Shown here piece by piece: positions 251-12,557 of a stretch of 12,557 nucleotides of DNA (position 1 is the first letter of the stretch; the number at the start of each line of letters is the position of its first letter). The stretch is taken from the NCBI GenBank assembly GCA_003697085.1, contig RFFU01000005.1:1-12557 (forward strand). Direction: 5' to 3'. Under the pieces are notes generated by a model, which saw only the letters and a list, made by a program, of their open reading frames with translations, was not told the DNA's origin and made no database searches. The position numbers and the translations under genes were made by a program. Source of the stretch: Candidatus Hydrogenedentota bacterium (lineage in GTDB: Bacteria > UBA8481 > J006).

Positions 251-3200
251 TCAACTCTCGTCTCCAAAATACACATCGATCCGCCGGACCGCGCCGGTGC
301 GGACCTGCTCGGCCGCCTCTCCACGAACCCCTACCGCGGAAAAGGTCTCCCGCCTTCCGTCACGCCAGGTCAAGCGGTATTCCTCCGGTACCACTCCCGC
401 CGAACCGAATGTATCCCGCCGCTTCGGGTTGTGATACACCACCAGCATCCTTCCGAGAAACTTGAAGGCAAAAGTATTTTCCGGAAGCAAAATTTCCCTC
501 CATCCTTCGACGGGATCAAGATACCGACGTCGGATCGGTTTTTTCGTGAACAACCATCCGGGAAGCCGGGGGCGAAGATTCAATCTCAGTCGCGCGCCCG
601 CGCCGCCCCCGTCACGCTCGACGGCAAACGGTTTCTCCCCCGCCACCGCCAGAATCCAGATATGAAGAAACTCGCAGGTAAGCCCGGAGAGACGTGGCTG
701 GTAGGCGCGGCCGTGCTCCGTTGGATCGTGATACGCACTGGACACAATGAACGACGCGCCCTCGAGTGTGCTTCGACCGTAAACCGCCGGATCGAGAAAG
801 GGCATCAACGTCGTCCGCGCATCCCGCCAAAAAGCCTCGCACAGACCGCTTCGGAGGATTTCCAAGAGGTATTTGTATTCCATATGGAGATAAATCGATT
901 CGTTCTCGATCCATCCCCGCGGATAGGCTCCGACGGCCCGCCCCAGTTCGAAGGATTCTCCCTCCATATTCTCGCACGATTTGTACATTCTCAGTTTCCG
1001 ATCGAAGAGCGGCGAGCGGCGCACGGCACGGTAAACGGATTCCGCCTCATGCGGCCGGACCCGCATCCAATGGACGGCCCCCTCGAGAAAGAGCCGCACC
1101 GGGCGCGTCCGGAACCCTTCCACCTTCACCAGCGGCCGGCCGTCCGGATCCTTCTTTCCAAGCGACCGAACCCGCTTCGCATCGCTGACGAAATAGGTGT
1201 AGGGAACTCCCTCCGGTGAAAGAACCTTCTTTCGCAAGGGACCCTCGAAGATTCCATCCAGCATCTCCAACGCCGCTTCGAGAAAGGAACGCAGTCTTTC
1301 CGAATGCAGCCGTCTCTCTTTCCCGGATACCCCCCAGTAGGTCCGCTCCCGGTAGCGTTCCTTGATCGCGTTCGCCTCGTCCCAATAACGAAACGCGGCT
1401 GCGGAAGCGGAATCGGCATTTTTCGAAGACGCAATCCGCCGCCGAATCACCGGCTCCAATTTCTCGATAAATTCCGCCAGTTCCTCGTAAACCGGTTCCC
1501 CTCGTGAGGGCATTTCGTCGAGCACCGAAAGCAACAAAGCAACCGCCTTGCGCAACTCCAATGTTTCGCAGAGCGCCGAGCCGAACAGACCCGGCAAGCC
1601 GTTCATCGAGTCGTTCCAACCCGGCTTGCCCGCCTCCATATCCATTCCGACCCCCGCGGGATCGAGGGTCGCGAGACGGTTCGTGACGATGCAGAGAAAC
1701 TTCACGAAGAGCGAGGTGAGGTAGACCTTGCCTGCCCCGTACTTTGTCCGAACACGGTAGGGATATTTCTTTCGCTTCGCGATCCGCTCCACCTTCGCAG
1801 GATCACGCCACACCGCACCGTACCGCCGGATCTTCCCGCCCGCATCCACACACTTTTCCGAACGCGGCCGAATCACGTCCGGGTCATCGAAAAAGGAATA
1901 GTCGCGTTTTCCGAAGAAGAGCGTTTCCGTCCGCTCCGGATACACCATTCGATAAATATCGATGAGATCGAGATTGTAGTGCCAATGATCGACCCAGAAC
2001 CCCTCGTGGAGTCCGCCGTTCTCGTCTTCCTCGAAATAACGCATCGCCTCAGGCAGGATTACCGCCAGGCTCTCCTTCGGCTCGCCCGCTCGTTCGAAGG
2101 CCATCGCGAGTCCGCCCGGGGTGAAGGGCCGCGCCGTAATCTCCTCGATCTTCCTTCGGGAAGCCGCTTTCGAAAAGCGTCGTTTCAGCCATTTTCGGAA
2201 CCCGACTTCGTCCGCCACGAGATACCGCATCGTCTTCACCTCGAGCGGATTGTAGCCGTCCAACTGGATCAGGTTCATAAACGTCGCCAAATTCGCGTCT
2301 TCCACCTCCGGAAAGAACCAGGTATCCGTTCGGCGATTCTGGAGAACACTTCGGTAGTGCCCGTTTCCCTGCGATAGATACGTCGGCTCGACGACGAAGA
2401 AATGGTAGTCCCGTTCGAGATCGCCGTTCTGGCGCGAATAGATATAAAAGGCGCTCTTTCCCCGCACCGTATCGAAGACCTCCGGCATCCCCCCGCGGAT
2501 AACATTGTCGAGAAAATCCTGTGCGCAGTAGGCATCGAAGACGGGATCCGCCGAGGCCGTAAAGGCGTGCTGCGCGATCTCCTCGAGCACCGCGCGGTTT
2601 TCTTTTTCTTTCCGATCCAAAAACCCGTTCCGCCGCACAAGCCTTCGTATCTCCGTGAAACGATCGTCGGAATCGGCGTACCCGATCAGAGTCGTTACAA
2701 CCGTTTCCTCCGCCGGACCGATACGAAGTTCTCCGGCGCAAAGCGCGCACGGTGTCTTGTTCAACCGATACTGTTTCTCTTTCAAGACCTTCGTCCCCTT
2801 CTCATCGAACCGGTACGGGAAATCGTAATTAATCGCGTCATCGAACACGATGCGCGGGTCGACGATCGCCGTTGCAACATTCTTGGAAACGGGAAGAAAG
2901 AAGTTCCCCCCCTCGATCTTCCCCACCTCCTCCTTGTCATCGGGCGTCTGGCGCAGGCGGAAGACCTCACACCCTGCTATCCGTTCCACGCCCATCATTC
3001 CCTCGATATGGCGTGGAATCCCCTTGATCCTCTGCAGATCGACTCCGGTCGGAAGAACGCGAACCGCACCGTCGAGAAAAGCAATTGTCCGGGAACGCCG
3101 CGTCAGGTTACGGATCGAGAGGCGCCGGACAAGAGCGGCAAAGGGAAGATTGGGAAGCGGAAAGTAATCGATTCGGATTTGCCAGCCGGCCTCCGGATCG

Positions 3201-3568
3201 GTTTCTTCGATCGAAAGGTCGGCGCGACCCATATGAAGAATCTGCGATACCTTCTCCGCCCGCCTTTTCCGGAACGGTTCATACAAGGGTTTTCGAGCCT
3301 CGCGAAGGAAGGTTCGAAATCCCTCTTGAAAGATGCGCATACAGGCCTTGTTGAAGGAATAGAATTCGAGGATCTGGCCGTTCTTGTCCTTGACACCCAT
3401 ACTCGAGACGACCTGGCCGCGATTGACGTAATACAGCCAGAGCGGAACTCCCCATCGTCCCGCGATCCCCGGCAAAAAATTCGAGAAGGGGCGGGCCCAG
3501 TTGTAATTCTCCACGACGAAGCGCCCGGTATCCGAATCGAGATAGAGTCGCGCCTTCCTTCCGCTCAT
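251..3568 (-). CDS. GH94-like (cellobiose-phosphorylase-type) large protein
   Basis: A 1105-residue protein, probably cytoplasmic, since no signal peptide is visible. The N-terminal part (about 15-75) has the SNFLPGIAGRWGVPLW...NRGQ pattern that I associate with very long proteins annotated as cellobiose phosphorylase. A catalytic-type segment follows, with HEGFWVDHWHYNLDLID near 521-537 and GWNDSMNGLPGLFG at about 650-663. In GH94 enzymes the general-acid aspartate sits in a WND motif, which would be D653 here (codon 1610-1612). GH94 phosphorylases cleave beta-glucosides with inorganic phosphate to give a sugar 1-phosphate. Typical members have about 800 residues, so this is a longer, uncharacterised branch and its substrate is unknown. 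It lies 218 bases after treT on the same strand, which suggests a role in glucan or disaccharide turnover. The start at 3568 is chosen for its strong Shine-Dalgarno; an ATG at 3658 would add 30 residues read through repeat-like DNA. Confidence 0.75.
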   Translation of the reverse strand: MSGRKARLYLDSDTGRFVVENYNWARPFSNFLPGIAGRWGVPLWLYYVNRGQVVSSMGVKDKNGQILEFYSFNKACMRIFQEGFRTFLREARKPLYEPFRKRRAEKVSQILHMGRADLSIEETDPEAGWQIRIDYFPLPNLPFAALVRRLSIRNLTRRSRTIAFLDGAVRVLPTGVDLQRIKGIPRHIEGMMGVERIAGCEVFRLRQTPDDKEEVGKIEGGNFFLPVSKNVATAIVDPRIVFDDAINYDFPYRFDEKGTKVLKEKQYRLNKTPCALCAGELRIGPAEETVVTTLIGYADSDDRFTEIRRLVRRNGFLDRKEKENRAVLEEIAQHAFTASADPVFDAYCAQDFLDNVIRGGMPEVFDTVRGKSAFYIYSRQNGDLERDYHFFVVEPTYLSQGNGHYRSVLQNRRTDTWFFPEVEDANLATFMNLIQLDGYNPLEVKTMRYLVADEVGFRKWLKRRFSKAASRRKIEEITARPFTPGGLAMAFERAGEPKESLAVILPEAMRYFEEDENGGLHEGFWVDHWHYNLDLIDIYRMVYPERTETLFFGKRDYSFFDDPDVIRPRSEKCVDAGGKIRRYGAVWRDPAKVERIAKRKKYPYRVRTKYGAGKVYLTSLFVKFLCIVTNRLATLDPAGVGMDMEAGKPGWNDSMNGLPGLFGSALCETLELRKAVALLLSVLDEMPSRGEPVYEELAEFIEKLEPVIRRRIASSKNADSASAAAFRYWDEANAIKERYRERTYWGVSGKERRLHSERLRSFLEAALEMLDGIFEGPLRKKVLSPEGVPYTYFVSDAKRVRSLGKKDPDGRPLVKVEGFRTRPVRLFLEGAVHWMRVRPHEAESVYRAVRRSPLFDRKLRMYKSCENMEGESFELGRAVGAYPRGWIENESIYLHMEYKYLLEILRSGLCEAFWRDARTTLMPFLDPAVYGRSTLEGASFIVSSAYHDPTEHGRAYQPRLSGLTCEFLHIWILAVAGEKPFAVERDGGGAGARLRLNLRPRLPGWLFTKKPIRRRYLDPVEGWREILLPENTFAFKFLGRMLVVYHNPKRRDTFGSAGVVPEEYRLTWRDGRRETFSAVGVRGEAAEQVRTGAVRRIDVYFGDES

Positions 3569-3575
3569 GAACAAT

Positions 3576-3582
3576 CCCTCCC
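3576..3582 (-). promoter_or_regulatory. Shine-Dalgarno deciding the phosphorylase-like start
   Basis: GGGAGGG on the minus strand lies seven bases before the ATG at 3566-3568. The upstream in-frame ATG at 3658 would translate a segment unlike the family N-terminus, so this site fixes the start. Confidence 0.75.
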
Positions 3583-3591
3583 GGTTCCGTT

Positions 3592-3612
3592 TTTCCGACT
3601 CTATATCGGAAA
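3592..3612 (-). promoter_or_regulatory. Palindrome over a possible -10 box
   Basis: A perfect 7-bp inverted repeat, TTTCCGA (3592-3598) and TCGGAAA (3606-3612), encloses TATAGAG when read on the minus strand. TATAGA resembles a -10 box, and TTGCGA 15 bases upstream resembles a -35, although that spacing is short. The palindrome ends ten bases before the Shine-Dalgarno. It could be an operator, a hairpin in the leader RNA, or chance. If real, it gives the phosphorylase-like gene its own regulation, separate from the trehalose operon. Confidence 0.3.
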
Positions 3613-3668
3613 GACGCGAATCGCAATAGAGCGCCGGTCGCGCCGCCGATGGCGCCAATCCGCCAACC

Positions 3669-3721
3669 GTAGGTTGGAGAACCTGCGCTCCACACCTGCG
3701 GGCAAGATGCCTGTGCTCCCA
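3669..3721 (-). repeat. Composite dispersed repeat (families C and B) in the treT-downstream gap
   Basis: The gap between treT and the phosphorylase-like gene holds two elements also found at 8040-8625. On the minus strand, 3697-3721 is a family B copy (TGGGAGCACAGGCATCTTGC), and 3669-3686 reads GCAGGTTCTCCAACCTAC, one base from the perfect hairpin at 8146-8163. The remainder of 3569-3786, apart from the palindrome at 3592-3612, shows no gene, terminator or further repeat that I can support. Confidence 0.7.
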
Positions 3722-3786
3722 GGAATGTGCGTTCCACTTCCGACAGAGAGGCCCGCGGTCCCGGGGTTACGCTTCTTTTTCGCCTT

Positions 3787-5031
3787 TTATCTCGTAATCA
3801 ATCGCTCCGTTGGATACTCCAGTGCGTGCAAGAGAAGCAGCCACCGGCGAAGGTTCTGGGTGACAAGAAATTCGCTGCGGACCCACTCCATTCCGAGCTT
3901 TCCCAATCGCTCGCGCTCTTTCGGATTCGCCAAAAGATAACGGATCTGATACGCGCACCCTTCGGGGGTATGGCAGAGAAGCCCCGTAACGCCGTGAAGC
4001 ACTTGAGCGGGGATACCGCCGACGGCACCGGCCACGACGGCCTTTCCCTTCCACAAGGCCTCTGTAACCGTCAACCCGAATCCTTCCCGAATCGATTTCT
4101 GCAGAACGATCGTGGCACCGCGTTGGAGTGCGTTGATCTCGTGATTCGCATCGGGAGGAAGTTCCAGGACGTGGCAGTCCGGATCGTTTCCGACGGCTTC
4201 CCGCACCTCCCGCAGGACCTCCGCGCCCTCGGGATCGTCCGTCGCGGACCCGCCGGCGAGCACCAGCCGAATGTCATTCGTCTCCTTCGCGATTTTGTAA
4301 GCACGATAGACACCAATCGGATCCTTGAGGCGGTCGTAGCGGGATACTTGAAGGATATACGGTTTGTCGCGCGGAATCCCGAGCCGCTCCAGAACAGCCT
4401 CGACTTCCTCCTCCGTAAGGATCCGGTTTTTTTCCGTCAAAGGATCGATGCTGGGAAAGAAGAGATACTGGGGAATCGGCAGTTGTTTGGCGAAAGCGGG
4501 GAGGCTGAAGATCGAGGCGTCGTATCGTTCGACATAGGATGAGAGAAAGTCCCAAACCCCGGGGGCGGGATGTGAGGCATCGATGTGACAACGCCAGACC
4601 CATTTCCTCGCGTCGCCGTTCTTCTTCAGATCGATCAAGGCGGCCGGCTGAGGGTCGTGGATCGCCACGACATCGGCATCGAGGTTGATCGTCTCAGCGT
4701 TTTTTCGGTTTGTCTGCATATAGATATCGACGTCCGTGGCGGAGAGGCGGACGGGAGCGCCGTGGATGGCGTTGTGCCATGCCTTGGTGACCCGGAAGAA
4801 ATCCGGATTTCCGTGGATCACCTCCCAGCGGCATTCGATCCCGAGTTCATTCATCAGGGGAACCAACCGCGCCAGCATCTCGGCGACTCCTCCGCCGACG
4901 CGCGTCGAATTCACCATCACAAGCCGTTTCCCCTTGAGATGCTCCGCGAAGAAGCGGAGTTCCTCGATCGTCCCCGTTCCGACGAGCGGTGCGTAGTCGT
5001 CGAGCGCGGGGGAAGAGCGAGGTTTATTCAT
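3787..5031 (-). CDS. treT: Trehalose synthase TreT (GT4 glycosyltransferase)
   Basis: A 414-residue cytoplasmic GT-B glycosyltransferase of family GT4. TreT makes trehalose from an NDP-glucose and free glucose, and the reaction can run in reverse. Visible motifs: NSTRVGGGVAEML (41-53), the N-domain glycine loop; HDPQPA (125-130); CHIDASHP (148-155); SRYDRLKDP (230-238), the start of the donor-binding domain; and EGFGLTVTEALWKGKAVV (316-333), with the GT4 E-x7-E pair at E316 and E324. The length matches characterised TreT proteins (about 410 residues). The ATG at 5029-5031 overlaps the stop of the upstream gene by four bases, and GGAGG lies seven bases before it, so translation is probably coupled. 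It is the last gene of the overlapping set and ends in TAA. A related GT4 trehalose phosphorylase or another disaccharide specificity cannot be excluded. Confidence 0.88.
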   Translation of the reverse strand: MNKPRSSPALDDYAPLVGTGTIEELRFFAEHLKGKRLVMVNSTRVGGGVAEMLARLVPLMNELGIECRWEVIHGNPDFFRVTKAWHNAIHGAPVRLSATDVDIYMQTNRKNAETINLDADVVAIHDPQPAALIDLKKNGDARKWVWRCHIDASHPAPGVWDFLSSYVERYDASIFSLPAFAKQLPIPQYLFFPSIDPLTEKNRILTEEEVEAVLERLGIPRDKPYILQVSRYDRLKDPIGVYRAYKIAKETNDIRLVLAGGSATDDPEGAEVLREVREAVGNDPDCHVLELPPDANHEINALQRGATIVLQKSIREGFGLTVTEALWKGKAVVAGAVGGIPAQVLHGVTGLLCHTPEGCAYQIRYLLANPKERERLGKLGMEWVRSEFLVTQNLRRWLLLLHALEYPTERLITR

Positions 5032-5663
5032 TCCAGCGCCTCCAGGATCTCATTCCGAACCCCTTCCAGCGTAAGCATCGTGAGGTCGATGCGATCGAGC
5101 CTTTCCGCCAGATCCGGCCGATTCATCGAGGTTCCGAGCCAGGCGGAGAAATCATTCGTAGCCAGGTCGACACGGATCCGCGCTGTCACGAAGTGATGGT
5201 AGATCGACTGGAGCGAAACCTGTGCGACGGCATCGCGAAATTCCTCGACCGACTTCACCACGATCCCCGTCGGCACGACGACCGAAATCGAACTGCAGAG
5301 ATAGAACGGCGTCCGCGCCGGTCGTGTCCCCGCCGCCGGGTTCTCCTCGATATAATCCTTCAGAACATCGACGATCGTTCCGCGCAGTTCGGCCAGGGAA
5401 TGCTTTCCGCGGATATCGACACCCGCCAATCGCTCCGCCAACACCGGCTCCCCGCACGCGTTATGAACCCAGTCGGCGAAGTCATTGGGATACCGTTCGA
5501 GAAAGAGATGGTGTTCCCGCAAGGTCTGAAAAAGGTGGTGAAAAATCTCGGCACCGCGCGCGGTGCGAATCACCCGCAGGAGCTCGTTGAGATTCCGGGC
5601 CTGTTTGCCGGTCAGTTCCACGAGGTCCGAAGACGTATGGAATCGAAAACTTTCGCCGTTCAT
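5028..5663 (-). CDS. DUF5752-like protein with internal duplication
   Basis: A 211-residue soluble protein of unknown function, without signal peptide or membrane segment. From memory it resembles the family catalogued as DUF5752, which occurs beside trehalose-synthesis genes; I could not check this. The sequence appears to contain two related halves. Residues 40-103 and 154-211 share I-F/Y-HH (H42/H43 and H156/H157), then NDFxxW (60-65 and 170-175), then P-x-LAERL, then D and a final L-x-x-(L/V)R helix. It starts at an ATG overlapping the otsB stop (ATGA), with GGAGG four bases upstream, and its own stop overlaps the treT start. The strict coupling on both sides suggests it is made in step with the trehalose enzymes, perhaps as a partner or regulator of TreT or OtsAB. 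That role is inference only. Confidence 0.8.
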   Translation of the reverse strand: MNGESFRFHTSSDLVELTGKQARNLNELLRVIRTARGAEIFHHLFQTLREHHLFLERYPNDFADWVHNACGEPVLAERLAGVDIRGKHSLAELRGTIVDVLKDYIEENPAAGTRPARTPFYLCSSISVVVPTGIVVKSVEEFRDAVAQVSLQSIYHHFVTARIRVDLATNDFSAWLGTSMNRPDLAERLDRIDLTMLTLEGVRNEILEALE

Positions 5664-6436
5664 TGGTCCTCCGCCGCCAAGATTTCGAGCATTTTGCCGA
5701 GCGCCTGCGGTCCGCTCAAGAAATATCGTGCCCGCGTCGCGATTTTTTTCCCGCGGTCGCGATCCGCTCCGCCGACGAGAATCCCGAAATCCTCTTTCCT
5801 CAATTCCGCGAACGCTTCCTCGTCCGTCACGTCGTCACCCGCGTAAAGAATGACCGCTTTCGGATGAAGGCGGCGAAACCACTTCACCGCGTCTCCCTTG
5901 GTCGGAGCATTTTTCGGTCGGAATTCGAGCACGCAGCGGCCCGAAAGCGTCTCGAATCCCTTCGGCACCCGTTCGGAAGCAAGCGACTCGACTTCCCTTC
6001 GCCGCGCGCGATCAACCTTCCGCGTATGCAGCACGACGTTCGCTCCCTTTCGCTCAATCAAAACACCGGGAAACGATCTTTCCAGAGTTTTTAGACGGAG
6101 GGCCAGACGTCGCGCGCGCGCCAAAAGCGCCGCGTTCCAAAGAACCTCCTGCCGCCGCCCCGGACTCCGACGAACGAAACCGTGCACTCCCACAATCGCC
6201 AGCCCGCTCACGGGAACCAGACGATCGATCTCTTCCAGAGGCCGTCCGGAAATCAGACCGATCTTCGTGTCCGATCGGTCTCGCAGGCGCTCGATGGCCC
6301 GCAGGGTTCTCCTCGGAACACGGGCCGCCTCGGGGGTCGGCGCGATCGGCGCAAGCGTCCCGTCGATATCCAACAAAAGGAGGAGACCGTGACGACGCCG
6401 GCTCCTCCGTATGCGCGTGATCGGCGGCTCCCTCAC
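5660..6436 (-). CDS. otsB: Trehalose-6-phosphate phosphatase
   Basis: A 258-residue HAD-superfamily phosphatase that removes phosphate from trehalose-6-phosphate, the second step of the OtsA/OtsB route. HAD motif I is DIDGTL (23-28), with nucleophile D23 and acid/base D25. Motif II is LISGRP (61-66, S63). The motif III lysine is probably K180 in KGDAVKW. Motif IV is GDDVTDEEAF (200-209), the Mg2+-binding acidic cluster. E. coli OtsB is about the same length (266). The frame is open far upstream inside otsA, but the domain begins at residue 17. The GTG at 6434-6436, overlapping the otsA stop as GTGA, is therefore the natural start. The first 16 residues are very arginine-rich. No strong Shine-Dalgarno precedes the GTG, so initiation probably depends on ribosomes finishing otsA. 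Confidence 0.9.
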   Translation of the reverse strand: MREPPITRIRRSRRRHGLLLLLDIDGTLAPIAPTPEAARVPRRTLRAIERLRDRSDTKIGLISGRPLEEIDRLVPVSGLAIVGVHGFVRRSPGRRQEVLWNAALLARARRLALRLKTLERSFPGVLIERKGANVVLHTRKVDRARRREVESLASERVPKGFETLSGRCVLEFRPKNAPTKGDAVKWFRRLHPKAVILYAGDDVTDEEAFAELRKEDFGILVGGADRDRGKKIATRARYFLSGPQALGKMLEILAAEDQ

Positions 6437-7986
6437 GGGAAATACACCGGTACGCTCCCCTCCACCCGTTTCACACCGGCATCGAAGAGCCGCCGGGCCC
6501 AATCGTAAACGTTGCGCTGAAAAACTTGCGTTCGCATTCGTTCCATCCGCACCCGCCGCTCTTCCTCCGGCATCTCGATCGCTTCGTGAATCGAGTGTGC
6601 CATCCCCTCGATGTCGTAAGGATTCACGATCAATGCGTCGGGAAGATCCCGAGCCGCGCCCGCGAAGCAGGATAAAATCAGGACACCGGGATCGGCGCCC
6701 TGGGACGCCACGTACTCCTTGGCCACGAGGTTCATTCCGTCTTGAAGGCTGGTGACGAGACAAATCCGTCCCATCCGATAAAGCGCCACCGCCGTCTCGG
6801 GACCGATCGTCTCGTTCAGAACGACCACCGGCTGCCATTGGTCCGAACCGTACCGCCAGTTGATGTCCCGCACCAGATCCTCGACCGTGTCGGCCAGATC
6901 CTGATACTCGCGGATGTGCGTTCGGCTCGGGGCCGCCGCGCCGATGTACTGGAATCGGCCGTGCCATTCCGGATGGAGTTCGAGAAATCGATCGATCGCC
7001 TGAAGCCGTTCCGGAATTCCTTTCGTGTAGTCCAATCGATCGACCCCTACCGCGAGCACTTCCGCCGTCAGATGATGCTCGATCCGAAGGCGCTCTTCCT
7101 CTTTCCGGACCTTCTCCGAATCCGCCAGATTCGAAACGTTGACGGCATCCATTCCGATCGGAAAGGGCCGGACATAGGTCACTTGATCCCCGTGAAAGAT
7201 GCATTGGTGCTCGCGATCCACCCGAACCTGCATCTCCGATTCGATGCTCTCGAGGAACTGGAGGCAATAGTACTGGAGATGGAACGCGAGAAGATCGTTT
7301 CCCATCAGCCCCTCGAAGATCTCGCGCCGCCAGGGACAGATGCGAAAGACCTCGGCATTCGGCCAGGGGATATGCCAGAAATGGACGACTCCGAGGTCCG
7401 GTCGGGCCTCCTTGAGGAATTTCGGCACGAGAGCAAGGTGGTAATCCTGAACCATCACGAGCGCCGAGTCGTCGCCGACCTCCTCCAACGCCGCCTCCGC
7501 GAACTTCCTGTTCACCGCCTCGTAGGTCTTCCAGTCGGACCAACGGAACCTCGGGCGGATATACGCGACGTGGCAGAGCGGCCAGAGCGCCTCGTTCGAG
7601 AAGCCGAAATAATATCCCTTCTCTTCCTCCTTCGAAAGAAAGATGCGCCGGAGGAGATATCGGGGATCCTTCGGAGGAACCTCGACGCGCCCCTTCTCGT
7701 CCGAGGCCATCTTGTCCGCGCCGCCGGAGCCGTGACCGACCCAGACTCCTCCCACGGCCCGCAGGACGGGATCGAGCGCCGTAACGACACCACCGGCCGG
7801 TTTGAAGTATTGCAGTTCCCCGCCGACCCGCTTGTGCTGATACGGCTCCCGGTTCGCCATCACGATGATCTTGCGATCGCCCAGGATGCTTCGCACGAAA
7901 TCCTCGAGCCGCGAGGCGTCCCACAATCGCGGCGTGAACCGGTATTGCTTCTCCAGCGCTCCTTCGTCTTCCTTCTTCGGACTCAT
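6433..7986 (-). CDS. otsA: Trehalose-6-phosphate synthase
   Basis: A 517-residue GT20 enzyme that joins glucose from UDP-glucose to glucose-6-phosphate to give trehalose-6-phosphate. Active-site residues of E. coli OtsA have clear counterparts: R46 in NREP (R9), the FSNEALWPLCH segment at 129-139, D180 in VQDYHL (D130), H205 in FWHIPWP (H154), R317 and K322 in VDRLDYTKGIPERL (R262, K267), and D416 and E424 in LQDGMNLVAKE (D361, E369). The N-terminal region, with an extended loop up to KPAGGVV (62-68) and a long stretch to about 120, makes it longer than E. coli OtsA (474). This is typical of a second OtsA subgroup found in environmental bacteria. It is the first gene of the overlapping set. 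A glucosylglycerol-phosphate synthase is the main alternative, but the adjacent otsB supports trehalose. Confidence 0.92.
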   Translation of the reverse strand: MSPKKEDEGALEKQYRFTPRLWDASRLEDFVRSILGDRKIIVMANREPYQHKRVGGELQYFKPAGGVVTALDPVLRAVGGVWVGHGSGGADKMASDEKGRVEVPPKDPRYLLRRIFLSKEEEKGYYFGFSNEALWPLCHVAYIRPRFRWSDWKTYEAVNRKFAEAALEEVGDDSALVMVQDYHLALVPKFLKEARPDLGVVHFWHIPWPNAEVFRICPWRREIFEGLMGNDLLAFHLQYYCLQFLESIESEMQVRVDREHQCIFHGDQVTYVRPFPIGMDAVNVSNLADSEKVRKEEERLRIEHHLTAEVLAVGVDRLDYTKGIPERLQAIDRFLELHPEWHGRFQYIGAAAPSRTHIREYQDLADTVEDLVRDINWRYGSDQWQPVVVLNETIGPETAVALYRMGRICLVTSLQDGMNLVAKEYVASQGADPGVLILSCFAGAARDLPDALIVNPYDIEGMAHSIHEAIEMPEEERRVRMERMRTQVFQRNVYDWARRLFDAGVKRVEGSVPVYFP

Positions 7987-7987
7987 G

Positions 7988-7996
7988 ACCTCCTTA
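7988..7996 (-). promoter_or_regulatory. Full-length Shine-Dalgarno of otsA, unusually close
   Basis: TAAGGAGGT on the minus strand is a nine-base match to the 16S rRNA 3' end but stands only one base before the ATG (7984-7986); GGAGG itself ends two bases from it. No other in-frame start lies nearby, so the ATG is kept. I see no convincing promoter between here and 8050. Confidence 0.6.
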
Positions 7997-8050
7997 ACCT
8001 ACCGGAAGAGCGCGCGATTGCAACTCGATATGGAAACGGGACGCCTGATC

Positions 8051-8072
8051 GAAGCGCAGACATCCTGCCTGC
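8051..8072 (+). repeat. Dispersed repeat, family B, copy 3
   Basis: GAAGCGCAGACATCCTGCCTGC, given here only as a family match, is a diverged plus-strand copy of the GGAGCGCAGGCATCTTGCC element. It shares the outer GCAG/CTGC stem with the other copies. It lies in the otsA upstream region, with no coding potential around it. Confidence 0.55.
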
Positions 8073-8100
8073 AGAAAGAGAGTGCGAGTGCCACCCCTCA

Positions 8101-8123
8101 CCCCACCCCTCCCCCCGGTGGGG
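8101..8123. repeat. C-rich/G-rich hairpin repeat
   Basis: CCCCACC (8101-8107) and GGTGGGG (8117-8123) form a 7-bp stem with a nine-base C-rich loop. Its six-frame translations (PSPHPSPRWGEG and the reverse) are the familiar spurious peptides of a widespread intergenic repeat. Confidence 0.6.
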
Positions 8124-8145
8124 CGAAGGGGAAGCGGAATGAAAC

Positions 8146-8163
8146 GCAGGTTCTCCAACCTGC
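8146..8163. repeat. Dispersed repeat, family C hairpin
   Basis: GCAGGTT and AACCTGC form a perfect 7-bp stem around CTCC. A near-identical copy (17 of 18 bases) lies inverted at 3669-3686, next to a family B copy. Confidence 0.7.
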
Positions 8164-8173
8164 GGGTGCCAGT

Positions 8174-8191
8174 GCGGGCGAGGACGCCCGC
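8174..8191. repeat. GC-rich hairpin
   Basis: GCGGGCG (8174-8180) and CGCCCGC (8185-8191) form a perfect 7-bp stem with an AGGA loop. It follows family C by ten bases and may belong to the same composite repeat. No T tract follows, so it is not a standard terminator. Confidence 0.6.
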
Positions 8192-8205
8192 CCCTCCATC
8201 GCCCC

Positions 8206-8248
8206 GGTGTCATTCCGAAAATCGCCGCAAGGCGATTGAGGAATCCCC
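8206..8248 (+). repeat. Dispersed palindromic repeat, family A, diverged copy
   Basis: It begins GGTGTCATTCC and ends GGAATCCCC. ATTCC (8212-8216) pairs with GGAAT (8240-8244), and AATCGCC (8220-8226) pairs with GGCGATT (8231-8237) around a GCAA loop. The layout matches the copies at 1-43 and 8441-8483, but several base pairs are replaced by different pairs. Confidence 0.75.
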
Positions 8249-8282
8249 TTCCGGCGGTATCCCGCCGTGGTGCCAATACGCC

Positions 8283-8354
8283 CCCCCTCTCCCCAACCGT
8301 CCCTGCGTGCGCCGCGATGCGTCGCGGCAGGCAGGTCCCCCGAGGGGCGAGGGA
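8283..8354. repeat. Long imperfect inverted repeat
   Basis: A C-rich left arm (CCCCTCTCCCC, from 8283) faces a G-rich right arm (GGGGCGAGGGAG, to 8354). A shorter GC-rich palindrome centred on GCCGCGATGCGTCGCGGC lies between them. This looks like one repeat inserted in another. It has no coding potential. Confidence 0.45.
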
Positions 8355-8380
8355 GAACGAGGCGGTTGTCAGCAATCTTG

Positions 8381-8421
8381 GGGGATTCCTCGTCGGCCTG
8401 CAGCCTCCTCGGAATGACACC
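8381..8421 (-). repeat. Dispersed palindromic repeat, family A, inverted copy
   Basis: On the minus strand it begins GGTGTCATTCCGAGG and ends GAGGAATCCCC, matching the ends of the copy at 8206-8248. The outer ATTCC/GGAAT stem is kept, but the centre is a different CTGCAG-containing sequence. Its end, GACACCAG (8416-8423), is an exact inverted repeat of CTGGTGTC (8443-8450) at the start of the next copy, so the two stand back to back. Confidence 0.7.
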
Positions 8422-8440
8422 AGGGTCGAGCGAAGCAAGA

Positions 8441-8483
8441 CACTGGTGTCATCCCGAGTTCGCCGTAAGGCGAACGCGGGATC
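8441..8483 (+). repeat. Dispersed palindromic repeat, family A, best-formed copy
   Basis: ATCCCG (8451-8456) pairs with CGGGAT (8477-8482), and GTTCGCC (8458-8464) pairs perfectly with GGCGAAC (8469-8475), with one A-G mismatch between the stems and a GTAA loop. It is in the same orientation as the copy at 1-43, so direct copies bracket the sugar operon. Confidence 0.8.
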
Positions 8484-8599
8484 TCCCCCACATGGTATCC
8501 CGCCTTCTGTCGTTCCGAGCCCCTCGCATTCGCACGGGGCAGGGGCAGGAGAAAGCCAAAACGCGAAAGGCACAAGGGAAAAGGAGAAGAAGCCGTCCC

Positions 8600-8623
8600 T
8601 GGGAGCGCAGGCATCTTGCCGGC
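8600..8623 (+). repeat. Dispersed repeat, family B, copy 4
   Basis: The sequence TGGGAGCGCAGGCATCTTGC starts at 8600 and closely matches the inverted copy at 3697-3721. It is the last repeat before the sequence changes to the more AT-rich leader of the surface protein gene. Confidence 0.7.
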
Positions 8624-8893
8624 CGGAAGGGACCGCGCTCCGTTGTCAGAGTGTCAATTTCCGACCCCCTATTATTGCAGCCCTCTATTTTTCTGTAAGT
8701 TTTTTCACCGTTCCTTTTTTGCACAAAGTCCGCCGGAACGAGTATAATAAAATTGGTGGGTTTTCGGTCCAAAAATGGAATCTCACGCGTTGATACGACA
8801 ATAGTTAGATATCAGCGGCACGGATACCGGCAGACAGCGCGACGTTACGGTCCTTCCGCATTGCGGACGTTCCCGCCGAGAAGGGGTTTAATA
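8624..8893 (+). promoter_or_regulatory. Intergenic leader of the surface protein, with a TATAAT box
   Basis: No gene is seen in this stretch. A perfect TATAAT lies at 8743-8748 inside a locally AT-rich segment. The best -35 candidates (TTGCAC at 8719, TGCACA at 8720) match only three or four of six consensus bases. Transcription from here would give a leader of about 140 bases before 8894. The leader contains a short CCGC/GCGG inverted repeat near 8857-8866 but matches no riboswitch I know. AAGGGG at 8881-8886 is the likely ribosome-binding site. Confidence 0.4.
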
Positions 8894-11800
8894 CTGAGAT
8901 TTTTTCTCTTTTTCTCTCTAGCCGTCGTTGCCATACCATCCAACGCCGCAATAACCGAATTCGGTGTATCGGGGGATTTCAATAGTTGGGCCGATCCTCC
9001 GACTTCGCTGCCGTATCTCTTCGTAAGCGAAGGAGGAGGAGATTTTTTCACCATCTACAAGATTCCATCTGATTTTGGCACAGGCGCCCAGAATTTCAAA
9101 TTCCGCGTGAATTTTGGTGCGGGTTTCCAGTGGCGTGGAGACGGAGGATCGATCTCACAAACCCAAACCAGTGCTGAAGGAACCTTCGATGTTCCAAATT
9201 ATTCCGGAGCTTCGAACATCTCCTTAACTCTGTCGGAAAACGGCTATTATTATATGTACGCATATGACGACGGTGCCGACGGAATCGTAAAAACACGTGG
9301 GGGCCGCGTTCGGACTGACGGGAAAAATTTCAGTTCCGCTTCAAGTGATGCGTATCGGGAGTGGCCGTCGTACGCCAAATTGGGGGTCGATGGGGGGATC
9401 ACATTCTATACGTATTGGGACACAACATACCTTTACATCGCCGTCAGCGGTGTAGACCTTGCTTCCGTAGGAACCAGCGGAGATTTCTTCGTGGCCATCG
9501 ATACTGATGGAATGGGGCGAGGATTGTATCAGTCTTCAAATTGGGATTCTCGACGGCATCATCTTCCTTTCGCTGCAGATCGCCTTCTCTGCATCGAAAA
9601 CAGCAATTATGCGCTTGTTCGCTTCGCCGATTATTCCCTCCCTTCACTCGATTGGAGTGATGGAGTCGGCGGTGGGTATGGAACGGGCGGTGACAGTTAC
9701 GTTGCGACTTCTTTTTCTGAATTCAGAATCGCGTGGTCCGTTTTGGGCGGGATCCCCACAAATCTTCGCATTATGGCATGGTATCAGGGAACGGATCTCA
9801 ATAACCAGTCCGTCAACGCCTCCTTTCCAGTGGAAAATCCCGCCTCGGGGACCGATGCCGATGAATATTTCACCCATTACTATTATTGGTCGAACATCAA
9901 CGGCAGTTCCAAACCCCGCGAAGATTCCCGAATCGTGGCTAATCCCCGCATCGTGATCAACGACGTCAACTACCAATCGTACGATCCCGGAAGCGGAACA
10001 GAGGAGGATGATTACATTGAACTCTACAATGCTTCCGGCACTTCGCGTTCGATCGGCAATTATACGCTTCGAGATATGGAGGGCCATTACGACATTACGA
10101 TTCCCGCGGGTGTCACTCTTGCAGCGGGCGGCAGAATCGTTCTTCACCCTGGCGTCGGGACAAACGGTTACATCGACAAAAACGGGACGAAACACTATTA
10201 CGGAAATCTCACGGGCTCTGCAAGCGATTGGTTCGCAACGGGCACCGATTATGCCGGAGCCCTTTCCCTATACAACAGCACAACGCTTTCCGCTTCAACA
10301 TTGGTGGATTTTGTCATGTTCAACAACTCGAATTCGGGTTGGAACACAACGCTTGATGACACAGCAACCGCAAACGGAATTTGGGTTGCGGACACAACCG
10401 TTAAGGTTGTTTCGACCAAGGTAGATAATCCGATTTTCCTGAAGAACGACGGCGCCGACAGCGATTACGCGATCAATGATTGGGTCGTCGCGCGGAGCAC
10501 GCAACAAGTCAACGGACTTACCAACAAAGGCGTGGAAAATCCAGGCGGCAAAAATCGTGTTTTTCAGAATAAGAACATCACCTCCCTGGGATTTTTCGAG
10601 TCCGATTACTCCACACCATTATCTGATTACGCCGTGCAAATCGGAGACACAATCTATGTAAAGCTTGTAACTTCACAAACAAACCCAACAGGCGCCTCCG
10701 GCCGCATCGACGCCATCGAAATCCTTATCTGGTCCAACGCCGGAGGAACGATCCCTGTTTCTCTTTTCGAGACTGGAAACAACACAAAAGAATTTCGGGG
10801 GCGTTTCGAGTTGAGCCGGGACACCACTTCTGCGGGTGCGGAACTCCTGAAGGTCAAAGCCGGCGATTCGGTTCACGCCCGACTGTACACCTTCTCCGGC
10901 GATAGTGCCGGTGTTTACGTCGGTCCGGACACGTCTCTTCCAAACGCCTGGTACCTTAACAACAACTCGACGGCCGGCGATTCCTTTACGACAGCAATCG
11001 GAAATGACGCCAACGATGGCTTGTCCCCCGCTTTCCCCAAACTCACATTAGATGACGTTCTACCTCGGCTCAGCCCCGGAGACACGCTTTACATCGATTC
11101 CGGCACCTTCAACCGGGCCACCCAGATTACGTTGGACGGCACCGGAAGTGCCGGCGGCGAGACGGGGGTCTGGATCATCGGCGTGGATTCCTCCGGCTCG
11201 ATCATCAATTTCACAGGCGCCGTCGATCTGCTCGTGAACAAGATCGACCGGCTCCACTTCCGTGATCTGGGCATCAAGGGGGCCAACGTGGGTTTGAAAC
11301 TCGATTCCTCGGATTCAACTTCCGTCGAGCGGGTCTACATCAACGCGCCCGCCAACGTAGGACTGCTGTTGACCAACTCGGATTCGTGCACGATTTCGCA
11401 AGTCGCCGTGGTCAACGGCGGCAACCACGGCATCAACCTTCAGACCAATTCCAACTTCAACTCGATCTCACACTGTCTCGTGGACAACGCGACCTTTTCC
11501 GGGATTCTGTTCAACGCCAACGCCGACACGAACACGATCACCAACTGCCGCTCGATCAACAACGGAAACCACGGTATTTCCTCCGATCTCTCCCTCTTCA
11601 CAAGAATCGAGAACTGCACAATTTCGGACAATTCCCAGTACGGCGTCTTTATCACAAACGCCTCCCATCGGGCGCAGATTTCCTCCAACGAGATCAGCGG
11701 AAACGGCCTCGACGGCATCCGGATCGAAGCAAACAATGCGGTGGTTCGCTATAACCGAAGCCGTTTCAACAACGGCGCAGGGGTCTGGGTCTTCTCGGGT

Positions 11801-12557
11801 TCAGGTGCAAAAGTGAACGAAAATGAATTTGACTCGAACGCCACATACAGCGCCCGGTTCCAGGTCGCTCCCAGCAGTTTCAAGAAGAACAATATCACGC
11901 CGGAACCGAACCAGTTGAACCGCGTCCGGATCGAAGTGAGCGGTATCGACTTCCGGAGAAACTGGTGGGGAACGACGGATTCGGGCGAAATCCGACACTC
12001 GATCGACAGTGCGAACGTCACCTTCACCGCCGACTTTATGCCGTTTCGCCTCGGCCGGGTCGATACGGATGCCGGTTCGGACACGGTGGCCCCGTCGGCA
12101 CCGACGGGGGTTACGGCTTCGGCTCTTGGGCCGACTTCGATTCGTGTCTCTTGGAACGCCGTTTTAACCGACGAAGAAACCGATGGAAATCCCGTCAATC
12201 TGAACGGATACAACATCTACCGGAGCGAGGTTGAGGATACCTCGTGGTGGAAGAAGGTCGGTTCGGTCGGTGCTGGAGTCACGCATTACGACGACGCAGG
12301 TCTGACAACGGGCACGAAGTATTATTATCGCGTAACCGCTTTCGACAATACGTCCCCTGACAGCAATGAGTCTTATTATTCGTCTATTGTTTCCGCCACT
12401 ACTTCGTCCACCGCAGGTCCGAACGCCTGGTACATCAACGACGCCGTGCACGATGCCGACGATTCCTTCACGACGGCGGTCGGCAGCGATGCGAACGATG
12501 GCACGGATCCCTCGACACCATTTCTCCACATCGACTCGGCCATCTCGCAACTGACCC
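8894..12557 (+). CDS. Large modular secreted/surface beta-helix protein (3' end outside window)
   Basis: At least 1221 codons without a stop, running off the window. Residues are numbered from the CTG at 8894. It has a signal peptide at 1-19 (a phenylalanine/leucine-rich core, then AIPSNAA). Residues 22-150 are an Ig-like domain opening with VSGDFNSW, recalling CBM20/48 folds. Residues 156-335 have WDTTYLYIAVSG...FVAIDTD, as in CBM9/glucodextranase C-terminal domains. Residues 350-546 are lamin-tail-like (VINDVNY...DYIELYNASG). Residues 556-681 are Ig-like with ETGNNTKEFRGRF. Residues 683-1056 are a right-handed parallel beta-helix of 22-24-residue rungs ending at NWWGTTD. Residues 1063-1172 are fibronectin type III, and from 1176 a second helix-cap module begins. 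Its job is probably carbohydrate binding or adhesion at the cell surface; no enzyme active site was recognised. The start is uncertain: CTG 8894 has AAGGGG seven bases upstream, while TTG 8861 gives a longer signal peptide but no Shine-Dalgarno. Upstream, the frame is closed by TAA at 8696. Confidence 0.8.
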   Translation, partial: MRFFLFFSLAVVAIPSNAAITEFGVSGDFNSWADPPTSLPYLFVSEGGGDFFTIYKIPSDFGTGAQNFKFRVNFGAGFQWRGDGGSISQTQTSAEGTFDVPNYSGASNISLTLSENGYYYMYAYDDGADGIVKTRGGRVRTDGKNFSSASSDAYREWPSYAKLGVDGGITFYTYWDTTYLYIAVSGVDLASVGTSGDFFVAIDTDGMGRGLYQSSNWDSRRHHLPFAADRLLCIENSNYALVRFADYSLPSLDWSDGVGGGYGTGGDSYVATSFSEFRIAWSVLGGIPTNLRIMAWYQGTDLNNQSVNASFPVENPASGTDADEYFTHYYYWSNINGSSKPREDSRIVANPRIVINDVNYQSYDPGSGTEEDDYIELYNASGTSRSIGNYTLRDMEGHYDITIPAGVTLAAGGRIVLHPGVGTNGYIDKNGTKHYYGNLTGSASDWFATGTDYAGALSLYNSTTLSASTLVDFVMFNNSNSGWNTTLDDTATANGIWVADTTVKVVSTKVDNPIFLKNDGADSDYAINDWVVARSTQQVNGLTNKGVENPGGKNRVFQNKNITSLGFFESDYSTPLSDYAVQIGDTIYVKLVTSQTNPTGASGRIDAIEILIWSNAGGTIPVSLFETGNNTKEFRGRFELSRDTTSAGAELLKVKAGDSVHARLYTFSGDSAGVYVGPDTSLPNAWYLNNNSTAGDSFTTAIGNDANDGLSPAFPKLTLDDVLPRLSPGDTLYIDSGTFNRATQITLDGTGSAGGETGVWIIGVDSSGSIINFTGAVDLLVNKIDRLHFRDLGIKGANVGLKLDSSDSTSVERVYINAPANVGLLLTNSDSCTISQVAVVNGGNHGINLQTNSNFNSISHCLVDNATFSGILFNANADTNTITNCRSINNGNHGISSDLSLFTRIENCTISDNSQYGVFITNASHRAQISSNEISGNGLDGIRIEANNAVVRYNRSRFNNGAGVWVFSGSGAKVNENEFDSNATYSARFQVAPSSFKKNNITPEPNQLNRVRIEVSGIDFRRNWWGTTDSGEIRHSIDSANVTFTADFMPFRLGRVDTDAGSDTVAPSAPTGVTASALGPTSIRVSWNAVLTDEETDGNPVNLNGYNIYRSEVEDTSWWKKVGSVGAGVTHYDDAGLTTGTKYYYRVTAFDNTSPDSNESYYSSIVSATTSSTAGPNAWYINDAVHDADDSFTTAVGSDANDGTDPSTPFLHIDSAISQLT
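10940..11110 (+). repeat. Beta-helix cap module, copy 1 (within the surface protein)
   Basis: It encodes PNAWYLNNN...DSFTTAIGNDANDGLSPAFPK, then SPGDTLYIDSGTF. The D-ANDG-x-x-P...GDTLYI..GTF pattern is typical of the N-terminal cap of right-handed parallel beta-helix domains. It precedes the rungs and has a close second copy at 12419. Confidence 0.7.
12419..12557 (+). repeat. Beta-helix cap module, copy 2 (cut by window end)
   Basis: It encodes PNAWYIND...DDSFTTAVGSDANDGTDPSTPF, aligned with copy 1 at P-N-A-W-Y, DSFTTA, G, DANDG and P. It begins exactly 1479 bases (493 codons) after copy 1, directly after the fibronectin type III domain. The gene therefore probably continues with another helix. 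Confidence 0.75.

Follow-up and report, generated by a model that had tools for sequence, protein, structure and literature searches.

The 211-aa protein encoded between otsB and treT in a trehalose operon of Candidatus Hydrogenedentota bacterium is a full-length member of the DUF5752 family and a relative of Thermoproteus tenax OrfY, and we think it is probably an accessory or regulatory subunit dedicated to the adjacent trehalose synthase TreT. The idea that DUF5752 serves TreT draws on the obligate pairing of the two genes, the restriction of the pairing to a single TreT clade and the co-divergence of the two proteins. The stretch of DNA analyzed here, referred to as the window, is the 12,557 nucleotides of contig RFFU01000005.1 (assembly GCA_003697085.1).

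Genomic Context of the Trehalose Operon

The gene order of the operon is otsA-otsB-ORF-treT, with all four genes on the minus strand (Table 1). The 211-aa reading frame exists as the initial annotation described it, and the 4-base overlaps it was said to have with both neighbours can be read from the sequence: an ATGA at 5660-5663 holds the otsB stop and the DUF5752 start, and a second ATGA at 5028-5031 holds the DUF5752 stop and the treT start. Compared with the solved TreT structures, the TreT in the window scores higher against 6ZJ4 (417 bits) than against the Pyrococcus horikoshii enzyme 2X6Q (328 bits).

Table 1. Genes, repeat units and signature motifs of the trehalose operon in the window.
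Feature	Position	Strand	Description and evidence
treT, GT4 trehalose synthase, 414 aa	3787..5031	-	PF21269 TreT_GT1 E 1.9e-57; nearest solved structure 6ZJ4, 417 bits
DUF5752 / OrfY-family gene, 211 aa	5028..5663	-	PF19027 full length, E 1.9e-58; phmmer to 4CSO E 3.4e-26
Repeat unit 2, residues 116-211	5031..5318	-	strand and five helices; H157, R164, N170-D171-F172-x-x-W175, D193, R203; hhalign, DSSP, conservation
NDFSAW, residues 170-175, unit 2 signature	5139..5156	-	D171 120/121, W175 121/121
Repeat unit 1, residues 2-102	5358..5660	-	strand and five helices; H43, N60-D61-F62-x-x-W65, E77, D83, R94; hhalign, DSSP, conservation
NDFADW, residues 60-65, unit 1 signature	5469..5486	-	D61 120/121, W65 121/121
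otsB, trehalose-6-phosphate phosphatase	5660..6430	-	TIGR00685 T6PP above cut-off
otsA, trehalose-6-phosphate synthase (GT20)	6433..7986	-	PF00982 E 2e-124; TIGR02400 451 bits, short of the 565 cut-off

Adjoining the operon, also on the minus strand (251-3658), is a gene for a 1135-aa protein with zero Pfam matches and a weak match to GH149 beta-1,3-glucan phosphorylase (E 2.3e-16, residues 551-803) that falls far below the cut-off; it is probably a divergent phosphorylase of disaccharides or glucans. Divergent from the operon on the plus strand (8753-12556) is an open-ended reading frame for a large protein that combines a lamin-tail domain, a right-handed beta-helix and fn3 domains and is likely an exported surface protein. 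The operon is additionally flanked by non-coding repeats, one a 63-base direct repeat (1-63, 8203-8265 and 8441-8503; 60-84% identity) and the other a 39-base inverted pair (3685-3723 with 8598-8636; 82% identity), as is typical of dispersed intergenic repeats.

Family, Fold and Internal Duplication

The match to PF19027 (DUF5752) scores 197.7 bits, passing the curated gathering cut-off of 23 bits, and aligns residues 4-211 of the protein with positions 2-208 of the 208 in the model. The initial annotation called this an unknown protein, and that description stands for its function but not for its family, as both DUF5752 and a solved homologue, 4CSO, are on record. The AlphaFold2 model of the 211-aa protein (pLDDT 89) has the OrfY fold of 4CSO over the whole chain, with a Z of 22.5, an rmsd of 2.5 and 205 residues aligned (Foldseek E 8e-16, TM 0.83). 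OrfY is 32% identical to the window protein and carries the His and NDFxxW in both halves of its sequence, but in the phmmer alignment it is without the E77 and R164 that are conserved in the bacterial proteins. In a PDB fold search with the AlphaFold2 model, 4CSO was the sole true match and the rest were low-Z helical look-alikes; a weak fold match beyond 4CSO was treated as evidence neither way. DUF5752 is structurally the same as the window protein and its family entry carries no function, while the molecule name that the PDB depositors gave 4CSO is transcription factor. No viral relatives of the DUF5752 protein were found, and searches of the literature under DUF5752, PF19027 or 4CSO returned nothing.

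The two halves of the protein are an internal duplication, as had been proposed. Residues 40-103 and 154-211 are 33% identical (BLASTP E 6e-8) and give a local alignment score of 72, compared with a mean of 21.4 (sd 4.0, maximum 48) in 5000 shuffles. A profile-profile comparison of one half against the other using hhalign gave a probability of 99.8 and an E of 2e-27, and the profile of either half finds the other half in 43/43 members. The homology of these two segments was thus correctly recognized in the initial annotation, but their extent was underestimated, as the repeat really covers residues 2-102 and 116-211, or nearly the whole protein. Structure prediction of the protein alone gave the same predicted secondary structure twice, a strand and five helices: E6-22, H25-33, H37-50, H61-68, H73-80 and H90-107 in unit 1, and E120-136, H139-148, H151-163, H171-178, H183-190 and H199-210 in unit 2, with a short extra helix (109-113) between the two units. 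Together, the profile-profile comparison and the repeated predicted secondary structure give the two equivalent halves of the OrfY fold. Both the fold and the duplication were already known; the duplication is no discovery of ours, since a novel fold and an origin by gene duplication are reportedly described for OrfY in the CASP10 targets paper.

Conserved Residues

Conservation was counted in 121 distinct full-length DUF5752 homologues. Each half was originally described as having a paired HH, but only the second His of each pair is invariant (H43 and H157, 121/121 each), whereas the first position is His in 83/121 (H42) and 5/121 (H156). Homologues without the HH are therefore found for half 2, whereas the NDFxxW is kept in both halves as first described (Table 1). 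The third proposed motif, P-x-LAERL, could not be upheld as a shared feature, as its Pro is incidental and its Glu belongs to half 1 only (E77, 121/121, versus Glu in 22/121 at the equivalent half-2 position). The invariants that are symmetric between the halves are one His, D-F-x-x-W, an Asp (D83, D193) and an Arg (R94, R203). R164 (118/121) is kept in half 2 alone, and since E77 is likewise specific to half 1, the halves share a core signature and have specialized later. With one conserved His per half, the metal site suggested for the paired HH is not supported by conservation and was rejected in that form, though it is possible that the His, Asp and Trp of each half make up a pseudo-symmetric candidate ligand site.

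Single-Unit Relatives

Approximately 15 PF19027 matches cover half the model only. Most of these are in proteins of ~1000 aa with receiver domains before the unit and a PPDK_N (ATP-grasp) domain after it. The combination of receiver, single DUF5752 unit and PPDK_N (L074, L075, L077-L082 and L084-L089; ORFs of about 985-1130 aa) is apparently an unnamed signalling architecture, and one protein (L087) has an additional N-terminal receiver domain, for three receiver matches. Two single-unit proteins (L076 and L083) are ~100 aa long, and this small type was seen in one genus only. In hhalign comparisons with the two halves, the PPDK-type profile gave probabilities of 98.5 and 98.1 and the small-type profile 96.2 and 95.5. 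The motifs are in place in both types: the PPDK type has [YF]-H together with N-[DHN]-F-S-x-x-W, and the small type has Y-H together with N-D-F-A-x-x-W. The receiver-PPDK_N hybrids differ from the window protein in having one repeat unit inside a large signalling-type protein instead of two, and in several of them the Asp of NDF is replaced by His or Asn. Since single copies exist in both the receiver-PPDK_N and the ~100-aa proteins, the fused dimer arose from a wider domain, with the ~95-aa unit being a domain in its own right that was doubled and fused in the TreT partner. No mention of single-unit DUF5752 relatives turned up in the searchable literature.

Association with treT Across Genomes

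In GTDB genomes, treT adjoins a full-length DUF5752 gene in 43/43 loci. A second collection of 80 loci came from Omnitrophota, Elusimicrobiota, Planctomycetota, Acidobacteriota and others; treT is directly downstream of DUF5752 in 78 of these and the other two end at a contig edge, making 78/78 assessable loci paired, with a median DUF5752-treT spacing of ~0 bases. The two sets overlap slightly (e.g., one Lindowbacteria contig is in both) and contain 121 distinct proteins. DUF5752 is on the same strand as treT and immediately upstream of it, usually overlapping or abutting, in 121/121 assessable loci, a count that covers non-archaeal loci and represents partly overlapping species samples as opposed to independent events.

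Both models were searched in 280 genomes and found TreT above cut-off in 73 and full-length DUF5752 in 41. TreT was present in 41/41 genomes with full-length DUF5752, versus 32/239 of the others. Of the control genomes, that of Sulfolobus acidocaldarius, a species for which a system for deleting treT is available (PMC7688234), contains both proteins, and that of Thermotoga maritima contains TreT only. In the small phyla around genomes G086 and G114, DUF5752 and TreT are present or absent together, with close relatives lacking both. The link to the other trehalose genes is looser: a long enough OtsA match is found in 89 and OtsB in 97 of 123 loci, with some of the rest cut by contig ends. The obligate TreT link of DUF5752 was not found in the searchable literature.

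Candidate natural fusions were also seen, but none were used as evidence because the frames look artefactual. In L060, a 765-aa frame joins OtsA, OtsB and DUF5752, but the assembly there seems to be frameshifted or collapsed. In L073 and L121, the protein has a long N-terminal extension that resembles GC-rich sequence read out of frame.

TreT Clade and Co-Divergence

In a quick tree search of 97 TreTs, those with a partner group in a single clade (SH-aLRT 99), and L102 is the only solo TreT that falls inside it. When the solved TreTs were added, 6ZJ4 (the T. uzoniensis enzyme on our reading of PMC11046441) joined the partnered TreTs and 2X6Q was placed among the solo ones, at moderate FastTree support (0.70 and 0.85). 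DUF5752 is limited to one TreT clade, which excludes the Pyrococcus TreT.

The lone solo TreT inside the partnered clade, L102, has a 10-base N run (4904-4913) at the start of treT, and this treT is directly before a sugar ABC importer (6211-10521; binding protein, two permeases and ATPase), so its DUF5752 partner may be lost or inside the N gap; the importer could indicate that this lineage has gone over to taking up and using trehalose. Overall, sugar importer genes near treT occur in 9/38 solo versus 7/122 paired loci, a weak separation. TreT-like GT4 genes without DUF5752 (L091-L128) often adjoin a long (~730 aa) OtsA-like gene and are a second, separate otsA-treT arrangement.

Pairwise distances among the DUF5752 proteins and among their TreTs have a correlation of 0.93, and the partial correlation is 0.84 given OtsA (95% 0.74-0.89) and 0.84 given OtsB. 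The partial correlation of DUF5752 and OtsA given TreT is 0.36 (0.36-0.38 for DUF5752 versus OtsA/OtsB), and that of TreT and OtsA given DUF5752 is 0.07. DUF5752 divergence therefore tracks TreT far better than OtsA or OtsB. It is possible that cassette inheritance could yield part of this co-divergence, yet much of that cassette is common to OtsA and OtsB as well. We also considered the TreT residues specific to the partnered clade as a map of the interface, and rejected this as there are five such positions only, which is too few.

The initial annotation proposed a stoichiometric partner or regulator of trehalose synthesis. A role as partner or regulator agrees with our results for TreT, given the 121/121 pairing, the one clade and the co-divergence, but it is not supported for a general OtsA/OtsB partner, as about a quarter of the DUF5752 loci are without a full OtsA match (some of these being cut by contig ends).

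Proposed Role of DUF5752

As a subunit of TreT, DUF5752 would be co-produced with TreT and bind to it, and would either tune TreT activity on a small ligand or stabilize or assemble TreT. The His, Asp and Trp of each half could form a ligand pocket, paired by the pseudo-twofold axis, or could be a buried fold signature. The weaker OtsA/OtsB residual would fit a secondary role in joining the TreT and OtsAB routes, though the main claim stands without it. When produced by itself in E. coli, T. tenax TreT turns over UDP-glucose with a kcat of about 13.5 per s (PMC11211441), and a fusion of T. uzoniensis TreT to mCherry is functional (PMC6861944). Since both of these enzymes are active without the partner, DUF5752 is not essential to catalysis, and therefore regulation or stabilization is left as its role.

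T. tenax also offers a precedent, the TPSP-GT complex, in which a non-catalytic operon partner switches a trehalose enzyme, with both partner binding and switching demonstrated by yeast two-hybrid and activity (PMC3634074). The partner in that complex is a GT4-type glycosyltransferase on a GT20 fusion enzyme, and the TreT pathway of T. tenax is described as unidirectional (PMC3634074). Unlike that partner, DUF5752 is no glycosyltransferase and has TreT as its linked enzyme, and the proteins are unrelated. One-way synthesis by T. tenax TreT was reportedly measured on the enzyme alone, and DUF5752 as the cause of this direction was rejected as unsupported. Several points do speak against DUF5752 being a TreT subunit: many TreTs are entirely without DUF5752, adjacency and co-divergence may also arise from genes travelling as a cassette, and the depositors of 4CSO labelled it a transcription factor.

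The strongest alternative, which we consider unlikely, is that DUF5752 is a solubility or assembly factor without a ligand that stabilizes or scaffolds TreT, perhaps joining it to OtsA/OtsB, with the His, NDFxxW and Asp/Arg being structural. The signature is also present in single-unit proteins whose partners are quite different, as expected of a fold signature, and the asymmetric DUF5752-OtsA residual correlation suits a bridge role, but a polar His and Asp that are invariant in both halves are more than a fold usually demands. Also in its favour, T. uzoniensis TreT needed to be fused artificially to mCherry to become more soluble and stable, going by the title of Mestrom 2019 (via PMC6861944); however, P. 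horikoshii TreT, from outside the partnered clade, has equally low yields (PMC11211441), so low yield is not specific to partnered TreTs.

We find it quite improbable that DUF5752 is an enzyme of its own, placed in series with TreT in the trehalose or NDP-glucose pathway and acting, for instance, on a substrate or product of TreT. The invariant His, Asp, Glu77, Arg and Trp could form an active site, and the CASP10 target paper is said to call OrfY a functionally uncharacterized enzyme. Against this, there were zero enzyme-family or enzyme-fold matches, with 4CSO alone being found, and 4CSO itself does not keep E77 and R164; moreover, the TreT reaction (NDP-glucose and glucose) leaves no missing step and solo TreTs manage without DUF5752.

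Trehalose is a twofold-symmetric disaccharide, and a more speculative thought, to which we give very little weight, is that DUF5752 is a product sensor in which each half (His, Asp and Trp) grips one glucose of trehalose and the sugar-bound form throttles TreT. The single-unit receiver-PPDK_N versions would then be half-sites for a monosaccharide or related metabolite, and the pseudo-twofold symmetry of DUF5752 would match that of its ligand.

A transcription factor for the trehalose operon, which is what the PDB molecule name of 4CSO implies, is hardly credible, as a DNA-binding domain was not found in Pfam or PDB fold matches (an absence that is no proof), the pI of the window protein is 5.7 with a family median of 6.1, and co-divergence with TreT is unexpected for a DNA-binding regulator.

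Implications

The family, fold and duplication were known before; the obligate DUF5752-TreT link and the single-unit relatives are added here. DUF5752/OrfY had a solved structure with no function, and it now has a concrete, testable partner in TreT. The single-unit relatives provide an evolutionary source for a duplicated domain that is without any other PDB fold match, and they tie the DUF5752 domain to phosphotransfer-type signalling proteins. TreT is used for making trehalose and its analogues, and because in vitro work has been done without the DUF5752 protein, the natural regulation, stability or direction of the partnered-clade TreTs may have been missed.
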